IMG/VR virus record: IMGVR_UViG_3300042898_004908
Location: 1 to 59,495 of that record
Source: a virus
Length of the DNA: 59,495 bases
Reading direction: 5' to 3' (one strand)
Within the stretch, counting starts at the first letter, position 1, and each line of letters starts with the position of its first letter. The notes below the pieces were generated by a model that worked only from the letters and a program-made list of their open reading frames with translations, made no database searches and had not been told where the DNA came from. Positions 1,715-11,480 of this stretch are shown here, piece after piece. The translations under genes were made by a program, and so were the position numbers.

Positions 1715-2614
1715 ATGTCAAATCTAATTTTTTTTACTCAAGATGTACCTGGTGAGAGAGAATGGCTGTATAGCTTGTTCCCTGACCACCTGTGTCTTGA
1801 AACACAATCTTCAGGTCGGTGGAATACTGTGACCAGTAACCCTGTAATTTGGGAGGTTCCAGGGCCTGATCAACATTTAGACCTCCATTCCAAGTTAGAC
1901 GGTTCCAAAGTCAAATCCATTTTTCAGCAAGACTTGCCCATTGAAACATTGTTAAATGATACCGGATGGTTAGACTCCGAGGATTTGTATCTACACAACA
2001 AACTTAATTTTGCAGATGCTGACTCAGATGCGGCAATTAGTCAATACCAAATGTTTACTTTTGCTCGGTGTGGTACTGTGTTTACTGAATCAATTCTTCA
2101 GAAAAAGTATCCGGTCATTGAGCATCATTATGTTCTAGAAAACAACTTACCTCGAATCGTCACAGCGTGTCAAAATACACAAACACTTATTTGCTTGTTG
2201 TATCGTCGTGATTGGTGGAGTTGGCTTGTCAGCAACATAATCTCAGAAAACAACGATTATTATCATTATTATTCAAATGTTAATTTTGCAAACTTAAATT
2301 CTGTAGAAATTGGCCCTGCACAAATTGAACTGTACGAAGAAAGAATTAGATCAATTTTTAATTTCTGGTGCAATCTTAGAATGTGCCTGCCTTTGCATCA
2401 ATTTAAACTTTTTGAGTTTGCAGATGTTATTAAACAAAATCAATCAAACACCGATCACAAAAAAATTCCTTACAATCCTGCAGACTTTGTAGTGAATCAT
2501 GAAAAATCAAAATTGCTATTTGAAGAAGAATACTTACCTCGTTGGCAAGAAATTGAACGCAACAGTTTGCATCATTTGTCTGCAATGAAGGTCAACCTTA
2601 CATCAACCATATGA
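1715..2614 (+). CDS. Putative sulfotransferase-like protein
   Basis: 299 residues, not confidently recognised. Around residue 115 the stretch F-A-R-C-G-T-V-F-T-E-S-I-L resembles the PAPS phosphate-binding loop of sulfotransferases (x-x-R-S-G-T-x-x-L). Around residue 160 L-L-Y-R-R-D-W-W-S-W resembles their second nucleotide-binding segment (R-D-x-x-x-S). The C-terminal third, with L-F-E-F-A-D-V and many charged residues, also fits that fold. The gene has its own promoter with no leader, and its stop overlaps the gp47 start by four bases. Two other genes here (4626 and 8584) share the weak N-terminal pattern. It could equally be a glycosyltransferase-like or unrelated protein. Confidence 0.45.
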   Translation: MSNLIFFTQDVPGEREWLYSLFPDHLCLETQSSGRWNTVTSNPVIWEVPGPDQHLDLHSKLDGSKVKSIFQQDLPIETLLNDTGWLDSEDLYLHNKLNFADADSDAAISQYQMFTFARCGTVFTESILQKKYPVIEHHYVLENNLPRIVTACQNTQTLICLLYRRDWWSWLVSNIISENNDYYHYYSNVNFANLNSVEIGPAQIELYEERIRSIFNFWCNLRMCLPLHQFKLFEFADVIKQNQSNTDHKKIPYNPADFVVNHEKSKLLFEEEYLPRWQEIERNSLHHLSAMKVNLTSTI

Positions 2615-3624
2615 ATTTATTTAAAAAAGCCGCGATCTTCACTGACATTCACTTTGGACTGAAGTCAAATAGTATTCTACACAACGAAGACTGTTTGACC
2701 TTTGTCAAATGGGCCACTGCCAAAGCCAAAAGCGAAGGTTGCGAAACCTGCTTGTTTTTGGGAGATTGGCACAACAATCGAGCCAACCTCAATATTGTCA
2801 CGCTAAACTACAGTCTACAAGCACTGGAGCACATGAATGCCAACTTTGAGCATGTGTACTTTATTCCTGGCAATCATGACTTGTATTATCGCGATAAGAG
2901 AGATATACAGAGTGTGGAGTGGGCAAAGCATCTCCCCAATGTTGAAATCTGCAACAATTGGTTTGACGGTGGCAATGTGATCATTGCTCCTTGGCTCTGC
3001 GGAGACGATCATAAACGCATACCCAAACTAAAGGGCAAGTACATGTTCGGGCACTTTGAACTGCCTGGCTACTTGATGAACGCCATGGTGGAAATGCCCG
3101 ATCACGGTGAAGTGCGTAGAGAAGACTTCAACAACTTTGAACATGTGTTTACTGGACACTTTCACAAGCGACAGACCAAAAAAAATATCACCTACATTGG
3201 CAACTGTTTCCCGCACAACTATGCTGACGCTGGTGACGACGAGCGTGGACTAACTGTATTAGAATGGGGGCATGATCCTGTGTATCATGCATGGCCAGAT
3301 CAGCCCAGTTACAGAGTCTACGGACTGGCCAATTTGATCGACAATGCCGCCAGCTTGCTTCGACCCAAGATGCATGTGCGTGTTAATTTAGATATTGAAA
3401 TCAGCTACGAAGAAGCTAATTTTATCAAAGAAACATTTATTCAGCAGTACGGACTGAGAGAAATGGCCCTCATCCCCAACAAGGCCGCCGGAGTAGAAGT
3501 TGACCTGGCGCCTGGAGAAATTAAATTTGAGTCAGTTGATCAAATTGTAACAGATCAAATTACAAATATTGAATCAGAATTTTACGACAACAAATTGTTG
3601 CTGAAAATTTATCAAAATCTATGA
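2611..3624 (+). CDS. 47: Recombination endonuclease subunit gp47 (Mre11/SbcD-like)
   Basis: 337 residues, equal to the T4 gp47 length class. The calcineurin-like phosphoesterase metal motifs appear in order: D12-I-H14, G-D-W-H-N-N (51-56), G-N-H-D (87-90), G-H-F-E (147-150) and G-H-F-H (182-185). With gp46 it forms the Mre11-Rad50-type nuclease that resects DNA ends for recombination-dependent phage replication. The start overlaps the upstream stop as ATGA. Unlike T4, where 47 and 46 are near neighbours, three unknown genes separate them here. Confidence 0.93.
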   Translation: MNLFKKAAIFTDIHFGLKSNSILHNEDCLTFVKWATAKAKSEGCETCLFLGDWHNNRANLNIVTLNYSLQALEHMNANFEHVYFIPGNHDLYYRDKRDIQSVEWAKHLPNVEICNNWFDGGNVIIAPWLCGDDHKRIPKLKGKYMFGHFELPGYLMNAMVEMPDHGEVRREDFNNFEHVFTGHFHKRQTKKNITYIGNCFPHNYADAGDDERGLTVLEWGHDPVYHAWPDQPSYRVYGLANLIDNAASLLRPKMHVRVNLDIEISYEEANFIKETFIQQYGLREMALIPNKAAGVEVDLAPGEIKFESVDQIVTDQITNIESEFYDNKLLLKIYQNL

Positions 3625-4085
3625 GTTGGCGCCAAACACAATTAGATCAATCATTGTGTGACCAAGATCGATTAATTTTACAACTATTTGAAAATTGTTC
3701 TGTAAAATACATAGGTCAAAATGCTGAATTTGCTGAGCATCTGACTGTGGACAATGATTCATCAAACTTGATACTGATAATAAATCATCCAGTATGGTGT
3801 TCAGATTTAGTATCTCTTTGCAAAACGCATTTGACTGATACCGTCCAAACTTTTTATATTGGCGTCAACAGGTACTGCATCAAAGGCAACGATACCACAG
3901 TTGAACTAAATCTAACAGACAGCAAAGGCCAAGACATAATTGATTTTGTTAGTGGGCAAGCACAGTCAGGTGGCCATGTGACCACACAGTCTGGTCATTA
4001 TGACCAAGACCTCGGCAGGCATTTCAATTTTGTACAACCGTTAACATGGGTATATGGACACAAAACAACAAACCAAAGTAACTAA
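3621..4085 (+). CDS. Unknown protein, cassette gene B, copy 1
   Basis: 154 residues, no recognised family. It opens M-S-W-R-Q-T-Q-L, carries L-I-L-I-I-N-H-P-V-W near residue 50 and Y-I-G-V-N-R-Y near 79, and ends G-R-H-F-N-F-V-Q-P-L-T-W-V-Y. The same landmarks in the same order recur in the gene at 7551 (L-V-I-W-I-E-N-Q-P; Y-L-A-V-N-K-F; F-N-W-V-H-P-L-T-R-F-Y), so the two are read as paralogues. The hydrophobic strand - acidic/N-P turn - helix - strand layout is reminiscent of class I methyltransferases, but no SAM-binding glycine motif is visible. Its start overlaps the gp47 stop by four bases. Confidence 0.6.
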   Translation: MSWRQTQLDQSLCDQDRLILQLFENCSVKYIGQNAEFAEHLTVDNDSSNLILIINHPVWCSDLVSLCKTHLTDTVQTFYIGVNRYCIKGNDTTVELNLTDSKGQDIIDFVSGQAQSGGHVTTQSGHYDQDLGRHFNFVQPLTWVYGHKTTNQSN

Positions 4086-4629
4086 TCAGAATAAAATTAA
4101 TTTTTTTCAAACAGTCTACCATCATCAGTCTGCTGACAAGAATGACTTAGTCGATCTTGAATCAATTGATCAACCCACAATTATTCTAATAGATTGTTGC
4201 GGATGGTATTATAAAAAACTGTTTCCTCAAAAGTCTATCATTGGTTTTGAAACAGTTAAAACAGTCAAAGATTTTGAGCTAGACCAAACATACTTTGATC
4301 GTTTGATTGACAATCAAGCTGACAATCGAATTGGGTGGCCTTCATTGACAGCATCCAAGTGTGCAGTGGTGTTTGATAGATCACCCTTGCTAAAGTATCT
4401 GACACTGCAACAGATATCTAATATACTAGATAAAATTTCCAACAAGTACATGCCCGATACCATTGTGTTAGAGCAATCATTGATCTTTATAGATGACGCA
4501 AGATTGGTAGATAGATTTTATACCGTTGCCAGTCTTGCAATTGACAATTACATTGTGAATCAATTCAACTACAACACTGACAAGATGCATCTTTCAGTTA
4601 GATTTCAAAAGAAAATCAACACACTATGA
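4054..4629 (+). CDS. Unknown protein, cassette gene C, copy 1
   Basis: 191 residues, no recognised family. Features are T-I-I-L-I-D-C-C-G-W near residue 42, C-A-V-V-F-D-R-S-P-L-L-K near 108, and a helix followed by P-D-T-I-V-L-E-Q-S near 136. The order and spacing resemble the 176-aa protein at 8057 (T-V-V-L-F-S-G-S-W; N-I-L-I-L-H-S-G-F-F; P-K-Q-I-V-L-S-I-P), suggesting paralogy. The start lies 32 bases inside the preceding gene in another frame; no later ATG would keep the shared N-terminal half. The last bases overlap the next gene as ATGA. Confidence 0.55.
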   Translation: MDTKQQTKVTNQNKINFFQTVYHHQSADKNDLVDLESIDQPTIILIDCCGWYYKKLFPQKSIIGFETVKTVKDFELDQTYFDRLIDNQADNRIGWPSLTASKCAVVFDRSPLLKYLTLQQISNILDKISNKYMPDTIVLEQSLIFIDDARLVDRFYTVASLAIDNYIVNQFNYNTDKMHLSVRFQKKINTL

Positions 4630-5513
4630 CCCGAGCAGTCGCTATAGATTTTATAGCCGGAACTCATGGCCATTTTCTTGAGGTTATTCTAAACAAGTTT
4701 TTTAGTGTGGTATCAGTTGACTTTGTTCCATTTACTGCACTGGGCACCAGCCACAATGCCACAGAAGAATATACCAAGAATAAAATGTTTCATGCCGAGC
4801 ATTGGAGCGAGCTGTATCCAGAAAAATTAAAAAAATTCGATCAAGTTATTGCTATAAAATTTTTGCCCGAAGATCTGTTGTATGTGGCATCTGTTAGTCT
4901 GTTACGAGCTGGAGATATGCAACTCAACAATGACCAATTGGAAATAGATACCTATAACAAACTCAATAACAAATTTTATAAAAATAGTCTTGATACCATA
5001 TTGACATCGTATCCATTTTTGCAAGTTGATCAGATCAACAGCAACATCCCGAGATATGTACTGAGAGAATTTTTTAAATATGGGTTTCGAGACACTGCCG
5101 TCAATGGCTATTGGGAGAAGCAACAGGTAATGCAGTATTCAGACAATTGTGATGTTTTTGAATTTGAGCTTGCTTCGTTTTACGACTTTGAACATTTTAC
5201 TCAAAACATCAAACGGTTGGAACAATTTTTAAATTTAAATTTTGACTTTGGCAACGAGTTTGCCGAGATGTACAAAAAATTTATTGAGTTTATACCTTAC
5301 TTGACACACAAAGTACAATGCGATCAAATTGTAGATCAGATAATTTCGCAAGTAATATCACCAATACCAAAACTGACTTTGCTACAAGAAAGTTATATCA
5401 ACGCTGAATTAGAAAAATATTTCAACAAAGAAATGCCATTTCACCAGGATGAGTATTTTAATTCAACACAATTTGTGTTACAATACATTAAAGAACAGGC
5501 ACCAGATTTATGA
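4626..5513 (+). CDS. Unknown protein, cassette gene A, copy 1 (sulfotransferase-like?)
   Basis: 295 residues. The N-terminus A-I-D-F-I-A-G-T-H-G-H-F-L-E places a G-T-H-G loop after a first beta strand, similar in position to the PAPS loop of sulfotransferases. The segment around 180-205 (F-E-F-E-L-A-S-F-Y-D then a helix with R-L-E-Q-F-L-N-L) resembles the C-terminal helix region of such enzymes. The 252-aa product of the gene at 8584 has the same architecture. The similarity is weak and the function is inferred only. DNA here looks AT-richer than in the flanking gp47 and gp46 genes. The stop overlaps the gp46 start by four bases. Confidence 0.5.
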   Translation: MTRAVAIDFIAGTHGHFLEVILNKFFSVVSVDFVPFTALGTSHNATEEYTKNKMFHAEHWSELYPEKLKKFDQVIAIKFLPEDLLYVASVSLLRAGDMQLNNDQLEIDTYNKLNNKFYKNSLDTILTSYPFLQVDQINSNIPRYVLREFFKYGFRDTAVNGYWEKQQVMQYSDNCDVFEFELASFYDFEHFTQNIKRLEQFLNLNFDFGNEFAEMYKKFIEFIPYLTHKVQCDQIVDQIISQVISPIPKLTLLQESYINAELEKYFNKEMPFHQDEYFNSTQFVLQYIKEQAPDL

Positions 5514-7591
5514 TAGAAATTCGCAATCTCACAGTAAAAAACTTTATGAGCGTGGGCAATGCCACACAGGCAGTAGACTTTGATCGTCAGGATTTGACTT
5601 TGGTATTGGGCGAGAATTTAGATCTCGGTGGCGATGGCAGTAGAAATGGCACAGGCAAGACTACCATTATCAATGCACTGAGCTATGCCATGTATGGACA
5701 AGCATTGAGCAACATACGCAAAGACAATCTGGTAAACAAGACCAACAGCAAAAACATGCTGGTCAGTTTGGATTTCAAAGTCAACGGACAAGCATACAAG
5801 ATTGAAAGAGGTCGCAAACCCAATGTATTGCGATTCTATGTCAACGACGAGCACCAGGTTGCACAAGATGATGCGCAGGGCGATTCAAGAGAAACACAAG
5901 ATGCTATCGAGCGGGTGATTGGCATGAGCCACGACATGTTTCAGCACATTGTTGCGTTGAACACTTACACTCCGCCATTTCTTAGTTTAAAGGCCAATGA
6001 ACAAAGAACAATTATTGAACAGTTGCTGGGCATCACTGTACTGAGTGAACGAGCTGATCGAATCAAAGAGCTCAACAGAGAAACCAAAGACGCTATTACA
6101 CAAGAAGAATTTCGAGTTCGTGCTGTGCAAGAAGCCAACAAACGAATCGAAGAGCAAATTGAAAGTCTGCGTCGTAGACAAGGTCTATGGCAAAAGAAAT
6201 ACGACAGTGACCTGGCATACCTTGTGGCACAATACGAAGACCTAGCCAAAATCAACATTGAAGTTGAACTGTTGGCTCACAAAGATCTAGCTGTTTGGAC
6301 CGAAAAGAAAAAACAAGCAGATGCGTACAATCGGCTGTTGGCATTTCAAACTGCATGGCGACAAACTCATGCCAAAGACATCAAAGAGCTCGAAGCCAGC
6401 TATGCCAAACTCAGTCACATAGATATCACTGCCGAACTACAGGCGCATCAGGATCTAGTGCTGTTCAATCAAAAGATCAAGGACATTGCAGATCTAGAAA
6501 AGTTGATTGCTAGATGTGTTGCAGATGAAGCCAAAGAACAAAAAGTCATTGTCAAACTCAAGGCTGAGATTGAAGAATTAAAAAATCACAAGTGCTATGC
6601 TTGTGGTCAAGACTTTCACGACGCCAGTCACGAAACTGTACTGGCTACCAAAGAAAAAGCACTGCAAGAAGCGGCATTGCAAGCATTGTCCACCAATGGG
6701 CAGTGGATGGAAAATACTGATGCACTTCAAGCATTGGGCGAGCTAGGCGTACAACCAACCACTCACTACAAGACTGAAGCAGAAGCAATTCGTCACTCCA
6801 GTGAGCTTGGCAACATACAACAAAAGATTGATGCTAAAAAATCTGAAACGGATCCTTATGCTGAACAATTGGTTGAAGTCTCGCTAGTAGAGCCTGGCCC
6901 ACAGCCGTCCACTCATTACGACACTGAATCACTGGCTATTGAACATCGCAGTCGTGTCAACACTTTGCTGACGCAGATTGCTGCCAAGGGCGAAGAGAAG
7001 GATCCGTACACAGAACAAATTACCGAAATGCAACAGCAAGCATTGCAAGAAGTGGACTACAACATCATCAATGAACTTACACGATTGCAAGAACATCAGG
7101 ACTTTTTGCTGAAGCTACTGACCAGCAAAGACAGTTTTGTACGCAAGAAGATCATTGATCAGAACTTGAGTTATCTGAACGCACGTCTAACACACTATCT
7201 AGATCGTATTGGCTTGCCACATACTGTGAAGTTCCAGAACGATTTGACTGTGAGCATAGAAGAACTGGGTCGTGAATTGGACTTTGACAATTTGAGTCGT
7301 GGTGAACGCAATCGATTAATTTTAAGTATGAGCTGGGCATTCCGAGATGTTTGGGAAAGTTTATACCATCCGATCAATGTGCTGTTCATTGACGAAATGA
7401 TTGACAACGGTATGGACACACAAGGTGTGGAAAATAGTCTGGCATTGTTGAAAAAGATGAGCAGAGAAAGACACAAGAGTATTTGGTTAGTCAGTCACAA
7501 AGATGAACTGGCTGGTCGAGTAGAAAATATTCTCAAGGTAATCAAAGAAAATGGATTTACCAGTTACAACACCGATGTTGACATTGCCTGA
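5510..7591 (+). CDS. 46: Recombination endonuclease subunit gp46 (Rad50/SbcC-like ATPase)
   Basis: 693 residues, somewhat longer than T4 gp46 (560 aa). Walker A is G-S-R-N-G-T-G-K-T-T (43-52). A long helical arm contains the Rad50 zinc hook C-Y-A-C-G near 362-366. The C-terminal head has the signature L-S-R-G-E-R-N, Walker B V-L-F-I-D-E near 624 and an H-loop S-H-K-D-E-L near 661. It partners gp47 in DNA end processing. It is translationally coupled on both sides, with ATGA overlap upstream, and is flanked by the two copies of the unknown three-gene cassette. Confidence 0.93.
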   Translation: MIEIRNLTVKNFMSVGNATQAVDFDRQDLTLVLGENLDLGGDGSRNGTGKTTIINALSYAMYGQALSNIRKDNLVNKTNSKNMLVSLDFKVNGQAYKIERGRKPNVLRFYVNDEHQVAQDDAQGDSRETQDAIERVIGMSHDMFQHIVALNTYTPPFLSLKANEQRTIIEQLLGITVLSERADRIKELNRETKDAITQEEFRVRAVQEANKRIEEQIESLRRRQGLWQKKYDSDLAYLVAQYEDLAKINIEVELLAHKDLAVWTEKKKQADAYNRLLAFQTAWRQTHAKDIKELEASYAKLSHIDITAELQAHQDLVLFNQKIKDIADLEKLIARCVADEAKEQKVIVKLKAEIEELKNHKCYACGQDFHDASHETVLATKEKALQEAALQALSTNGQWMENTDALQALGELGVQPTTHYKTEAEAIRHSSELGNIQQKIDAKKSETDPYAEQLVEVSLVEPGPQPSTHYDTESLAIEHRSRVNTLLTQIAAKGEEKDPYTEQITEMQQQALQEVDYNIINELTRLQEHQDFLLKLLTSKDSFVRKKIIDQNLSYLNARLTHYLDRIGLPHTVKFQNDLTVSIEELGRELDFDNLSRGERNRLILSMSWAFRDVWESLYHPINVLFIDEMIDNGMDTQGVENSLALLKKMSRERHKSIWLVSHKDELAGRVENILKVIKENGFTSYNTDVDIA

Positions 7592-8060
7592 TTCATTGGC
7601 CTGGCGTGAATACCAACTTGGGTGGTATGCTGAACCTGTGGCTATAAAACAAGATCACGAGTTGATTGAGTACATAAAACACAATCATATTCAGCATGCA
7701 ATAATTCACGGAGATGATTTTTTCTCTCAGCATGTTAACAAAGTTGATTATGGCCCAGTTGATCTTGTTATCTGGATTGAAAATCAACCGTTCGACTTTG
7801 AACAATTGGTAAACAATATCAATGCAGAGATTGAACACAATCTCTCCCCCAATGGCATTGTGTATTTGGCTGTGAACAAATTTTTGTGTAGACGGCATCA
7901 GTCTACCACAAACTTACCCGATGACTATAACTGTGCCATTTTTGATTATGTCACCAAAAATGTCAATGCAGTGACGGAAAAATATTTTCCTGATCTAGAT
8001 GGTGAAGGCACAATGTTTAATTGGGTTCATCCGTTAACAAGATTTTATTTTAGAAAATGA
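7551..8060 (+). CDS. Unknown protein, cassette gene B, copy 2
   Basis: 169 residues from the first ATG. A second ATG at 7575 would shorten the overlap with gp46 from 41 to 17 bases and give a start closer to that of the copy at 3621. Landmarks shared with that copy: a W-R-x-x-Q-L near the N-terminus, L-V-I-W-I-E-N-Q-P (about 72-80), G-I-V-Y-L-A-V-N-K-F (about 102-111) and F-N-W-V-H-P-L-T near the C-terminus. The N-G-I-V-Y-L-A-V stretch resembles the late strand of methyltransferase folds, but no cofactor motif is certain. The stop overlaps the next start by four bases. Confidence 0.6.
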   Translation: MDLPVTTPMLTLPDSLAWREYQLGWYAEPVAIKQDHELIEYIKHNHIQHAIIHGDDFFSQHVNKVDYGPVDLVIWIENQPFDFEQLVNNINAEIEHNLSPNGIVYLAVNKFLCRRHQSTTNLPDDYNCAIFDYVTKNVNAVTEKYFPDLDGEGTMFNWVHPLTRFYFRK

Positions 8061-8587
8061 AAGTCATAGAGAAATACTCTGACGGTGCTATTCTTGACAC
8101 TGCAGAAGTTGTCACACAGAGATTTCAAAAATCAATATATGATATATCTACAGGAGTAACAGAGTCTATTAGATCAAAATTGCTGCCAGGCAAAACGGTA
8201 GTGTTATTCAGTGGCAGTTGGAGATTTAACTTTGACGCAGTATATCTAGAAGCTAAAATTTTCGACCGCAACACAATTTCATTGCATAGCCAAACTTATT
8301 TTGTCGAACCTAACAATACAAAACTATTTGACAAAGTCATGCATGGAATCCATGCAACAAACATATTGATATTGCATTCAGGATTTTTTTGCAATTACAA
8401 ATCATTGGATGTAATTGTTGAACAAATGAGCACCTATCAACAATATTGTCCTAAACAAATTGTATTATCAATTCCTCAGGAGCGGGTAAGCTTCAATCGT
8501 TTGAAATACTCTGTAAACGATGTAGCACAGCAATATCAGGCAGAAGTAGTAGACAACTGTTTTATTATACAGATGGTTTCACAATGA
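8057..8587 (+). CDS. Unknown protein, cassette gene C, copy 2
   Basis: 176 residues with no recognised family and no obvious membrane segment. T-V-V-L-F-S-G-S-W-R-F near residue 47, N-I-L-I-L-H-S-G-F-F near 101 and P-K-Q-I-V-L-S-I-P near 131 occupy the same places as the landmarks in the gene at 4054. The predicted alternation of strands and helices suggests an alpha/beta domain. It is coupled to its neighbours by ATGA overlaps, so all three cassette products are probably made in similar amounts. Confidence 0.55.
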   Translation: MKVIEKYSDGAILDTAEVVTQRFQKSIYDISTGVTESIRSKLLPGKTVVLFSGSWRFNFDAVYLEAKIFDRNTISLHSQTYFVEPNNTKLFDKVMHGIHATNILILHSGFFCNYKSLDVIVEQMSTYQQYCPKQIVLSIPQERVSFNRLKYSVNDVAQQYQAEVVDNCFIIQMVSQ

Positions 8588-9342
8588 CTTTAAATATTTT
8601 AAGATGGCAGGGCGGGTCAGGTGGAGACATGTTGTTGAAATTAATTTCAAGCTCAGCAGTAGTACAAACAAATGCAAAATTTCAATCTGGATTGTCAGCA
8701 CATGGCAAAATATTATTGGATCAGTTGCACCAACCAAGTCAAATAAATTATATTGCAATGGATTTTAACTGCCGGGCATCGATTGACCCAAAATTATTAA
8801 AACAAGAACTTGATCAGATAATTTCTAGTGACCAAATCTGGTGGGTTAAAAGTCATTATTACGAACAGAATTTTTACACTGATTGTATTGTAGACATTGT
8901 AGTTGATCATGAGTTGTTACCTTTTGCTGTGACTGCAAATATCAATAAAACAACAACCATGCAGTCTGACTTTAATCCGTTGGTGGCTAAAATTACTGAT
9001 CCGTATGTTCGATATCAGTACTCAATTTACAGTTTAGCTAAAGATTTTGTTTATCCATACAACACCAAGCGCATTATACAATTGAAACAATTGTTATCTG
9101 GATGGGATCAATTAAAGAACGCACTAGATTCGTTGAATATATCACTTGACGAGAAACTAAAAAGTTTTTATCAAGATTGGTTAACGCTCAATACTATGTA
9201 CATGCCAACACCTGCGTATCAACATCTTGTCAAGACACAAGATTACAATATGGATCACCCTGATCTTACACTGGTTGAAAAATATTGTTTGTTAGTTCTT
9301 GCTGGACGCAAATTTCAAATGCTGGATCAAAATGAAGTTTGA
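8584..9342 (+). CDS. Unknown protein, cassette gene A, copy 2 (sulfotransferase-like?)
   Basis: 252 residues. The N-terminus I-L-R-W-Q-G-G-S-G-G-D-M-L-L-K-L shows a glycine-rich loop between a strand and a helix, as in P-loop sulfotransferases and related kinases. It aligns in position with the G-T-H-G loop of the gene at 4626. A later S-D-Q-I-W-W-V-K-S-H-Y is reminiscent of the strand that follows in sulfotransferases. The C-terminal helix-rich half ends near D-L-T-L-V-E-K-Y-C-L-L. The family is not established. The stop lies 11 bases inside the radical SAM gene, whose start is at 9332. Confidence 0.5.
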   Translation: MTLNILRWQGGSGGDMLLKLISSSAVVQTNAKFQSGLSAHGKILLDQLHQPSQINYIAMDFNCRASIDPKLLKQELDQIISSDQIWWVKSHYYEQNFYTDCIVDIVVDHELLPFAVTANINKTTTMQSDFNPLVAKITDPYVRYQYSIYSLAKDFVYPYNTKRIIQLKQLLSGWDQLKNALDSLNISLDEKLKSFYQDWLTLNTMYMPTPAYQHLVKTQDYNMDHPDLTLVEKYCLLVLAGRKFQMLDQNEV

Positions 9343-10438
9343 TTTTAACACAGTTGACGAGTACCAACTTGAAATTACCACTTATTGCAATGCGGCATGC
9401 CCTCAGTGTCCTCGAAACAAGCTCGGTGCAGGCATCAATCCTTACATGCCATTAACACATCTGCCACGCAAGGTCATTGATACAGCATTCACTATTGATC
9501 TATGCCAGAGGCTACGACAAATATTTTTCTGTGGCAGTTACGGTGATCCCATCATGCACCCTGACTTCCTGGAAATTTTAAAAGACTTTAGATCAAAGAA
9601 TCCCACATTGTGGTTGTATTTTCATACCAATGGTGGTGTTCACGATCCAGAGTACTGGGCAGAAATTGCTCGTATCATGAATGGGTACGGACAAATTGAC
9701 TTTGGCATCGATGGACTCAAAGACACTTTACATTTGTATCGTAAAAATGTAAAATACAGCAAGGTCATTGAAAATGCGCAGGCGTTTATCAATGCCGGAG
9801 GCAGAGCACAGTGGAACTTTATTGTGTTTAAACACAATGAACATCAAGTAGAAACTGTAAAGCAACTGGGCCAAGAGATGAAATTCTTCAATGTGTTGAT
9901 TCGCAAGACTGGTAGATTTTTAAATCATACTGAACTAGAAGAAATAGAAGCGTGGCCCATTGCTGGCAGCAATCATGTGCTAGAGCCGCCAGACAATATA
10001 GAATATAGAAATCAAAGTATAATGTTTTTGCCCAATCTCAAACAAGAGTATAGCAAAGTTCAAGACTATTTTGAAACTACTCCTATCAAGTGTGATGCGT
10101 TACAAGGCCGTAAGGTTGCCATCAATGCTGAAGGATTGGTATTACCGTGTAACTTTTTCAATCACAATTTGTACGATGCAAGATTTAGAGATGGTAGTTT
10201 GCCAGGAGCCCATGCTCTTGCACAACCCAATGGATCTAATCAGGTGAGAGATTTTTTGTCAAAATACGGATTTGAAAACTTAAACATTCATCACCGTACA
10301 CTAGAAAGAGTTTTTGACAATCCCATGTGGAATGATCTAGTAGATAGTTTTACCAACAGCAATCGATTGTTCGAGTGCGCAATGACTTGTGGTAGTCGGC
10401 TGCAAAAAGTTTGGGATCAAGGAGGATCCAACAGATGA
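9332..10438 (+). CDS. Radical SAM protein with SPASM-like C-terminus
   Basis: 368 residues from the ATG at 9332, which overlaps the upstream stop; a longer reading from a TTG at 9299 adds only eleven unconvincing residues. The canonical C-x3-C-x2-C cluster is C19-N-A-A-C23-P-Q-C26, followed by a G-S-Y-G-D-P motif that fits the SAM-binding strand. The C-terminal third has I-K-C-D-A-L-Q, then V-L-P-C-N-F and C-A-M-T-C-G, as in SPASM/twitch domains that bind extra iron-sulfur clusters. Such enzymes modify peptides or small molecules; the substrate is unknown. Position after the cassette and before an SDR suggests a shared pathway (inference). Confidence 0.82.
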   Translation: MKFDFNTVDEYQLEITTYCNAACPQCPRNKLGAGINPYMPLTHLPRKVIDTAFTIDLCQRLRQIFFCGSYGDPIMHPDFLEILKDFRSKNPTLWLYFHTNGGVHDPEYWAEIARIMNGYGQIDFGIDGLKDTLHLYRKNVKYSKVIENAQAFINAGGRAQWNFIVFKHNEHQVETVKQLGQEMKFFNVLIRKTGRFLNHTELEEIEAWPIAGSNHVLEPPDNIEYRNQSIMFLPNLKQEYSKVQDYFETTPIKCDALQGRKVAINAEGLVLPCNFFNHNLYDARFRDGSLPGAHALAQPNGSNQVRDFLSKYGFENLNIHHRTLERVFDNPMWNDLVDSFTNSNRLFECAMTCGSRLQKVWDQGGSNR

Positions 10439-11019
10439 AAGTATTAGTAACAGGTGGCAACAAAGGCCTAGGATTACATTTAGTTGAAACATTTGCCGGT
10501 GTTAGCACAAGTCGTGCCGACGGTTTTGATATTACAAAAAATGTAGAAGACATTGCCAACATGAGTTTGGACTACGATGTTTTTATCAACAATGCGTTTG
10601 ATGGGCCTCCGCAAGAATCCTGGGCCAACTTTGGTCAATCACAGATGTATTTTGCAGTGTACGATGCATGGAAAGCAAGCAACAAAGTTGGACATATTTT
10701 CAATATAGGGTCTGTTGGTGAAAAAACTATCACAGCTCCTGAGCCCAGGTTTGAAACTTATCGTGTCAGCAAGGCTGCATTATCGCATGCCAGCCGGCAG
10801 GGAACACAAGCATTTAAACAAAATTTAGTGCCGTTTAAGACTACATTGATCACCCTGGATCGACTAGACACAGAATTAAGCCGTAGTAGACCTACATGGA
10901 CTGGCAACGGCATTGAATTATTGGACATCAGCAACTTTATCAAATACGCTATCTCAGTGCAAAAAAATACTGTGGTAGAAGAGGCAACTTTTTACATCAA
11001 TTTCAACTATACGGCATAA
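10435..11019 (+). CDS. Short-chain dehydrogenase/reductase (SDR)
   Basis: 194 residues from the ATG at 10435. An AAGGAGG ribosome site about nine bases upstream fixes this start, and the ATG overlaps the radical SAM stop. The Rossmann motif T-G-G-N-K-G-L-G (6-13) binds NAD(P). N-N-A (52-54), S93 and the catalytic Y109-x3-K113 follow in classic SDR order. The protein is short for the family (usually about 250 aa); the substrate-binding region after the active site is reduced. It may act on the product of the upstream radical SAM or cassette enzymes. Confidence 0.85.
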   Translation: MKVLVTGGNKGLGLHLVETFAGVSTSRADGFDITKNVEDIANMSLDYDVFINNAFDGPPQESWANFGQSQMYFAVYDAWKASNKVGHIFNIGSVGEKTITAPEPRFETYRVSKAALSHASRQGTQAFKQNLVPFKTTLITLDRLDTELSRSRPTWTGNGIELLDISNFIKYAISVQKNTVVEEATFYINFNYTA

Positions 11020-11051: not shown

Positions 11052-11480
11052 ATGACATGGCTACATCAAGACACCCCAGTTGAGACTCTGCCCGAAGAAT
11101 GTGTTGGTTTTGTTTACTTGATCACAAATAATCTTTCAGGACGCAAGTACATAGGCAAAAAATTAGCAAAATTTAGCAAAACAACATACAAGACTGTAAA
11201 ACAAAAAAACGGCACAAAAAAGAAGAAAAAGATACGATCAAAGGTCGACTCAGACTGGAGAGAGTACTATGGGTCAAGCCCAGAATTAACTTCAGACATC
11301 GAAAAACTAGGCACCGAAAACTTCACCAGAGAAATACTTTTTTATTGCAACTCTAAAAGCGAATGTAGTTACATCGAAGCAAGAGAGCAATTTTCAAGAA
11401 GAGTATTGGAATCACGAGATTATTACAACGGCCACATACAAGTGCGTGTGCATGGCTCTCATATAATAGACAAACTGTAA
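11052..11480 (+). CDS. GIY-YIG-like nuclease
   Basis: 142 residues. G-F-V-Y-L-I-T-N (19-26) followed by R-K-Y-I-G-K-K is a GIY-YIG core. A very basic loop (K-K-K-K-K-I-R), then D-W-R-E-Y-Y-G-S-S and an E-A-R-E-Q-F motif complete the domain. Proteins of this shape are frequent in T4-like phages as free-standing, Seg-like homing endonucleases or as resident nucleases. No DNA-binding tail is visible after the domain. It ends the early operon and is followed by the structured gene-free stretch. Confidence 0.75.
   Translation: MTWLHQDTPVETLPEECVGFVYLITNNLSGRKYIGKKLAKFSKTTYKTVKQKNGTKKKKKIRSKVDSDWREYYGSSPELTSDIEKLGTENFTREILFYCNSKSECSYIEAREQFSRRVLESRDYYNGHIQVRVHGSHIIDKL

Follow-up and report, generated by a model that had tools for sequence, protein, structure and literature searches.

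What do the two sets of three genes that flank gp46 in a giant T4-like phage sequence encode, and how are they related to one another? The sequence, hereafter the window, is the 59,495-base IMG/VR virus record IMGVR_UViG_3300042898_004908; positions are given in window coordinates and all features described lie on the plus strand. We refer to the first, second and third gene of each set as F, S and T, set A being the genes to the left of gp46 (3621, 4054 and 4626; F_A, S_A and T_A) and set B those to the right (7551, 8057 and 8584; F_B, S_B and T_B). An initial annotation had described the sets as one cassette of unknown function occurring twice, and all six open reading frames (ORFs) are present, three on either side of gp46. 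With about even confidence, we read the six genes as two divergent versions of a cargo module in giant T4-like lake phages, in which F and S would encode a pair of methyltransferase-fold proteins that modifies a glycan or small molecule.

The first genes are homologous over their full length, as had been proposed, and this relationship is directly supported. F_A (3621..4085, 154 aa) and F_B (7551..8060, 169 aa) share 24.7% identity in BLASTP (E 9e-4 with all ORFs of 85 loci as the database), and profile-profile comparison gave an E-value of 6e-8 initially and of 5.8e-15 (probability 98.4, 148 columns) with deeper alignments of 28 and 12 non-redundant members, respectively (28 at nr90 for F_A), the reversed control giving 0.09. 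Among the landmarks previously singled out in this pair, Y-x-x-x-N-(K/R)-(F/Y) and (F)N-x-V-x-P-x-T are near-invariant, while only the N of N-x-P is kept. An AlphaFold2 model of F_B, built from an alignment of 11 homologs (predicted local distance difference test [pLDDT] 76, predicted template modelling score [pTM] 0.73), contains strands at residues 49-53, 70-77, 98-108, 141-146 and 163-168, which, as read from the secondary-structure string, correspond to beta1, beta4, beta5, beta6 and beta7, with beta2 and beta3 missing. The leading Foldseek matches were fibrillarin and O-methyltransferases (best E 1.7e-4), and VIA comparison gave Z-scores up to 9.4, fibrillarin 1g8a being matched at Z 9.3 with a root-mean-square deviation (rmsd) of 2.9 Å over 118 residues. 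On the basis of this model, F_B is predicted to have the class I S-adenosylmethionine (SAM) methyltransferase (Rossmann) fold, and F_A would share it by homology, apparently also without the beta2/beta3 region. By sequence, the first genes are therefore not expected to fall into unrelated folds, the outcome that would have spoken against their pairing. F is most strongly constrained where beta5 ends (Y105, N109) and in the beta6-beta7 turn (N157, V159, P161, T163), not in the cofactor loop, and the motif I position holds a single glycine (G54).

Pairing of the second genes, S_A (4054..4629, 191 aa) and S_B (8057..8587, 176 aa), was initially weak: with few sequences the profile match had an E-value of 0.004 over 46 columns, barely below the 0.009 reached by the best unrelated control. 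Deeper profiles yielded a moderate match (E 1.7e-4 over 130 collinear columns; reversed control 0.12), and the two genes are probably homologous. The AlphaFold2 model of S_B (pLDDT 81, pTM 0.78) has a seven-strand class I methyltransferase-like fold, with methyltransferases as the best Foldseek matches (E 2e-3) and a VIA Z-score of 9.8 (rmsd 3.5 Å over 131 residues) to the Hen1 methyltransferase 3jwh. We predict that S_B has the same class I (Rossmann) fold as F_B, and that S_A would adopt it too, given its moderate homology to the S_B family; the second pair, like the first, would thus not resolve into unrelated folds. F and S show no sequence homology detectable by profile comparison, though their predicted folds agree. 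In S_A, D47 and D108 are invariant and G50 and E66 nearly so (E66 in at least 90% of S_A sequences); D47, within an acidic motif-I-like D47-x-x-G, together with E66 and D108 would correspond to the positions of motif I, the beta2 end and the beta4 end. The ribose-binding acid at the beta2 end would be represented by E66 in S_A and by E65, invariant in 10 sequences, in S_B, and F has no modelled beta2. S_B additionally has an invariant S52-G53 and R56. S_A is the probable catalytic subunit.

The claimed relationship between the third genes could not be upheld. T_A (4626..5513, 295 aa; 27 nr90 members) is an enzyme-like family without annotation that carries a Gly-rich loop, IDFVAGxHGHFLE, and invariant H14, G15, H43, H59, R143 and R147-E148; T_B (8584..9342, 252 aa; 14 IMG/VR loci), likewise without annotation, has the Gly-rich loop ILRWxGGxGGD. 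Their profile-profile E-values were 0.15-0.34, including with deeper profiles, and homology between them was rejected for want of a profile signal. T_A is instead related to a cargo family designated c4 (E 4e-11) and weakly to another, c3 (2e-3), and T_B to the third gene of a further variant, set C (E 4.5e-4). The third gene belongs to a different family in sets A, B and D and is absent from some loci. Gene 1715 (1715-2614, between gp55 and gp47), which had been likened to the third genes, matches neither T_A nor T_B by profile; sulfotransferase-like ARCGT and RRDWW motifs are visible in it by eye. Pfam, PHROG and NCBIfam gave no match to it, and none of the first 84 loci yielded a relative. 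The Pfam Sulfotransfer families matched none of 1715, 4626 and 8584; one relative of 4626 reached a weak E-value of 0.086, and the likeness of the Gly-rich loop is at pattern level only.

Across relatives the order and pairing of F and S are conserved, as had been expected. An F_A alignment scan of IMG/VR recovered 43 loci, and in nearly all of approximately 40 of them, where the contig covers these genes, F_A, S_A and T_A stand in fixed order between gp47 and gp46. Two cargo genes precede set A in L150 and L151, other genes follow it in L093, L126 and L152, and T_A is missing only in L085; a T_A without the pair (56% identity) occurs in L004. Set B is accompanied by two regular partners, a radical-SAM protein (9332..10438; PF04055 E 8e-12) and an oxidoreductase of the short-chain dehydrogenase/reductase (SDR) family (10438..11019), the latter called from co-occurrence and from NCBIfam SDR models at E 8e-6, below their cut-off, with a true start that may differ. 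The order is F-S-T-radical SAM-SDR in the window, L089, L090, L111 and L112/L113/L115 and radical SAM-SDR-F-S-T in L107, L108, L109 and L114, the radical-SAM gene adjoining set B in both. Set B is followed in L027 and L083 by one gene of 570 residues, whose product in L083 combines a radical-SAM domain with weak SDR matches. L106 has T_B, radical SAM and SDR without F and S, and L085 keeps F and S but no T. The same gene content in two different orders gives good support for a pathway shared by set B, the radical-SAM protein and the SDR protein. Sets A and B surround gp46 together only in the window and in L085, where both sides hold the pair alone, and most relatives have one set, not two; L153/L154 carry set A and variant C, whose F is recognizable and whose S and T have diverged. 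Searching whole records, we found additional F proteins in two large ones. In L161 (record G048:35500-45500), a 202-residue gene comes after F, and then a 198-residue gene with AGRSGS and VTRND sulfotransferase-like motifs by eye (no Pfam match); the three lie between a radical-SAM gene and genes called glycosyltransferase-like from one weak Pfam match and otherwise by eye, near a tail-fibre-like gene, in a cluster with more than one radical-SAM gene. L162 (record G047) carries F together with an S_A-like gene (profile E 2.5e-7) in the vicinity of a radical-SAM-like gene. Linkage to gp46 is therefore not a fixed property of the pair.

The T4-like genes of the window are gp55 (806), gp47 (2611..3624; Mre11-SbcD-like, phrog_100 E 2.2e-57, Metallophos in Pfam) and gp46 (5510..7591; Rad50-SbcC-like, phrog_77 E 3.7e-103), the PHROG search agreeing with the earlier identification of the last two. 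The layout is gp55, 1715, gp47, set A, gp46, set B with the radical-SAM and SDR genes, and a GIY-YIG-like gene; gp47 is a core gene outside the module that forms the left border of the set A slot, gp46 is the core gene between both sets, and the gp55/gp47, gp47/gp46 and gp46/GIY-YIG slots hold one, three and five cargo genes, respectively. Adjoining genes were said to be coupled by ATGA throughout, which is overstated since this holds at five of the seven junctions (gp47/3621, 4054/4626, 4626/gp46, 7551/8057 and 8057/8584), the overlaps at 3621/4054 and gp46/7551 being 32 and 41 nt. Cargo in the slots between gp55, gp47, gp46 and the GIY-YIG gene is hypervariable: 33 distinct cargo sets occur in the 52 loci where gp55 and gp47 are complete, and locus pairs at 94-96% core identity have a mean cargo Jaccard index of 0.04, these slot diversity figures being approximate as cargo families came from BLAST clustering. 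The best named relatives of the window gp47 are from jumbo phages such as Pseudomonas phage PA5oct (49% identity), in which gp55, gp47 and gp46 are contiguous and the slots empty.

In the reading that we favour, the core of the module is F followed by S, whose class I SAM-methyltransferase-fold products may form a heterodimer. S would bind SAM and transfer its methyl group, and F, which lacks beta2 and beta3 of the cofactor site and retains invariant residues at beta5 and the beta6-beta7 edge, would assist S without being catalytic, either by holding the acceptor or by completing the active site. T may add a second step on the same acceptor, with the radical-SAM enzyme and the SDR adding more in set B. 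A role in modification would suit the predicted methyltransferase fold. We favour a glycan or small molecule as the most likely acceptor because the neighbours include glycosyltransferase-like, sulfotransferase-motif, epimerase-like, SGNH-like and radical-SAM genes; the product would be a modification of the host surface or virion, swapped among phages as selection changes. Several points weigh against this scheme. The evidence for the substrate is gene neighbourhood only, and Rossmann folds serve other roles besides methyl transfer. The canonical GxGxG motif is absent from the F and S alignments; the motif I region reads D-C-C-G-W in S_A, only partly motif-like, and F-S-G-x-x-R in S_B, which may not bind SAM since its motif I acid is lost and an invariant arginine stands there. 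The alignment used to model S_B mixed S_A and S_B sequences, and TM-scores of the F_B and S_B models to any single PDB chain are modest (0.3-0.5), indicating that they are related to a large superfamily at the level of the fold and do not belong to a named family.

Could the repeat simply have arisen recently, by duplication of a single three-gene cassette to the other side of gp46? The same order and similar gene sizes in the window invite this idea, which we consider very improbable. F proteins are 45-58% identical within set A and 30-85% identical within set B, but only 15-26% identical between the sets, so that each set is closer to its counterparts elsewhere than to the other set in the window; the F tree contradicts a recent duplication by placing all set B sequences in one clade, apart from set A, with 100% support, and the third genes are not detectably related. 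By these comparisons, sets A and B appear to be two ancient, distantly related versions of one module. Both sets encode real proteins under purifying selection, as dN (nonsynonymous divergence) is far below dS (synonymous divergence) wherever dS is unsaturated, with dN/dS of approximately 0.15-0.2 for the closest pairs (L089 versus L090: F 0.07/0.44, S 0.10/0.46, T 0.07/0.37). Within set A the three genes co-diverge (Mantel r 0.79-0.89, including 0.89 for S_A-T_A and 0.82 for F_A-T_A), the corresponding values with gp47 being 0.72-0.79 (F_A-gp47 0.72). That the sets assist the gp46/47 recombination nuclease as accessory factors, one role suggested at the outset, might be supposed from the position of set A, which lies between gp47 and gp46 in every locus that covers this context and overlaps both genes. 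The hypervariability of the slots makes such a partnership unlikely, and we give it little weight: association with gp46/47 is not constant, the sets being absent from most relatives, many of them close and with unrelated cargo in the same slot, the slots of PA5oct are empty, F-S pairs are found far from gp46 in other records, and set B follows gp46 and is tied to the radical-SAM and SDR genes.

A less readily dismissed possibility, though still an unlikely one, is that the pairs are pseudo-enzymes, methyltransferase-fold proteins that do not transfer methyl groups but inhibit or decoy SAM-dependent systems of the host, such as restriction-modification, as a changeable counter-defence. The degenerate motif I, the loss of beta2 and beta3 from F, the small size of the proteins, their hypervariable location and their fast divergence relative to the core (gp47 93% versus F_A 60%) would all suit this role, whereas the acids kept by S_A at three SAM-site positions, the link of set B to catalytic-looking radical-SAM and SDR partners and the fixed three-gene content of set A argue against it. 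Somewhat less probable again is that the module modifies phage DNA or RNA, through hypermodified nucleobases or methylated RNA, as protection against restriction or other defence. The RNA methyltransferases fibrillarin and Hen1 are among the top structural matches and the sets sit beside DNA-repair genes; however, both enzymes are generic members of the fold, and the interchangeable neighbours are AMP-binding, TctC, SGNH-like, sulfotransferase-like and dioxygenase genes. Neither the (D/N/S)PP(Y/F) motif of DNA N6A/N4C methyltransferases (such as DPPY) nor the PCQ motif of C5 methyltransferases is conserved in F or S: the catalytic position reads NQPF, NQSF, NQLF, NHPV or NNSI in F, with only the N conserved, and D-(R/H/N)-x-x in S_A, and S_B lacks an acid there. 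Many known routes of thymine and cytosine hypermodification need a thymidylate-synthase-family gene; only 3 of the 11 large relatives yielded one. Their records may be incomplete, and this clue was uninformative.

The searches agree with the statement that no described system has this layout. F, S and T matched no family in Pfam, PHROG or NCBIfam, profile searches of PDB sequences gave either nothing or spurious matches (those to Pizza proteins covered 27 residues only and were discarded as repeat artefacts), and a literature search found no description of the gene layout or the proteins. Pattern scans with F_B and S_A, a method that finds close relatives only, detected no bacterial relative in 84,980 prokaryote genomes, and tblastn with several F and T proteins found none in 50,697 phage records. 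Class I SAM methyltransferases such as fibrillarin, Hen1, RsmD and the small-molecule O- and N-methyltransferases resemble the predicted Rossmann strand order and fold of 7551 and 8057, and S_A has acids where this class has motif I, the beta2 end and the beta4 end; unlike them, F and S lack GxGxG, F lacks beta2 and beta3, and the proteins have only 150-190 residues and are encoded two in tandem. METTL3-METTL14 and Trm6-Trm61 are two-subunit methyltransferases that combine one catalytic and one non-catalytic methyltransferase-fold subunit. The two adjacent, co-diverging methyltransferase-fold genes, one poorer in cofactor-site features, resemble this arrangement and may encode a comparable heterodimer. 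The T4-like Campylobacter phages CP220 and CPt10 have an interchangeable cluster rich in radical-SAM genes (PMC2853527), similar to the swapped clusters described here, and the radical-SAM gene of the window matches CP220 at 25.6%; the genomic place is different, and the F and T proteins searched were absent from the phage records. Hypervariable islands of pelagimyophages and cyanomyophages contain glycosyltransferase and radical-SAM cassettes with a proposed function in surface alteration and avoidance of coinfection (PMC7029224). The L161 copy of the F-S pair has such a setting, whereas the slots in the window lie between gp55, gp47, gp46 and the GIY-YIG gene and the paired methyltransferase-like genes were not found described. 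The paired methyltransferase-like families are new, and cargo islands with radical-SAM genes in T4-like phages were already known.

Other cargo of the slots includes radical-SAM/SPASM proteins, an AMP-binding enzyme, TctC and a ring-hydroxylating dioxygenase pair, with weaker calls for a Sulfotransfer_1 protein near the cut-off and for SGNH-like and aminotransferase-like proteins by eye. In L093 (2911-5589) the gp47/gp46 slot holds, after set A, genes for a TctC-like solute-binding protein and for the alpha and beta subunits of a Rieske dioxygenase, which are close to anthranilate 1,2-dioxygenase AndAc/AndAd (E 1e-112 and 1e-31, below curated cut-offs), an unusual cargo for a phage. The AMP-binding gene (c8) recurs with the TctC receptor gene (c10), in both orders, in the gp47/gp46 slot of L023, L046, L047, L061, L062 and L073. 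A radical-SAM protein (c2), matched below cut-off by B12-type methyltransferase models, is nearly always followed by a small protein of 139-185 aa (c1), as in L059 (3614-5095) and approximately 28 other loci. The GIY-YIG-like core gene (11052..11480), recognized from its motif by eye, forms the right border of the cargo slots and occupies the same place in nearly all loci covering that end. Among close relatives gp46 falls into two length classes, approximately 587-600 aa in L004, L085, L117 and others versus 693 aa in the window, which suggests a coiled-coil indel of roughly 105 residues.

More tentatively, F and S may represent a new two-subunit methyltransferase architecture, a minimal pseudo-methyltransferase joined to a short methyltransferase, that, in lake jumbo phages, builds a chemically new and fast-changing modification of phage or host molecules with interchangeable third, radical-SAM and SDR enzymes. 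With this analysis, previously unannotated genes from many contigs of lake jumbo phages become an enzyme system open to testing, for which a fold is predicted, partners are defined and candidate active-site residues are named. The analysis also identifies the gp55/gp47/gp46/GIY-YIG region as a concrete hot spot where closely related phages swap modification enzymes, and thereby as a tractable place to ask whether superinfection exclusion, evasion of defence or host metabolism drives the turnover of cargo.

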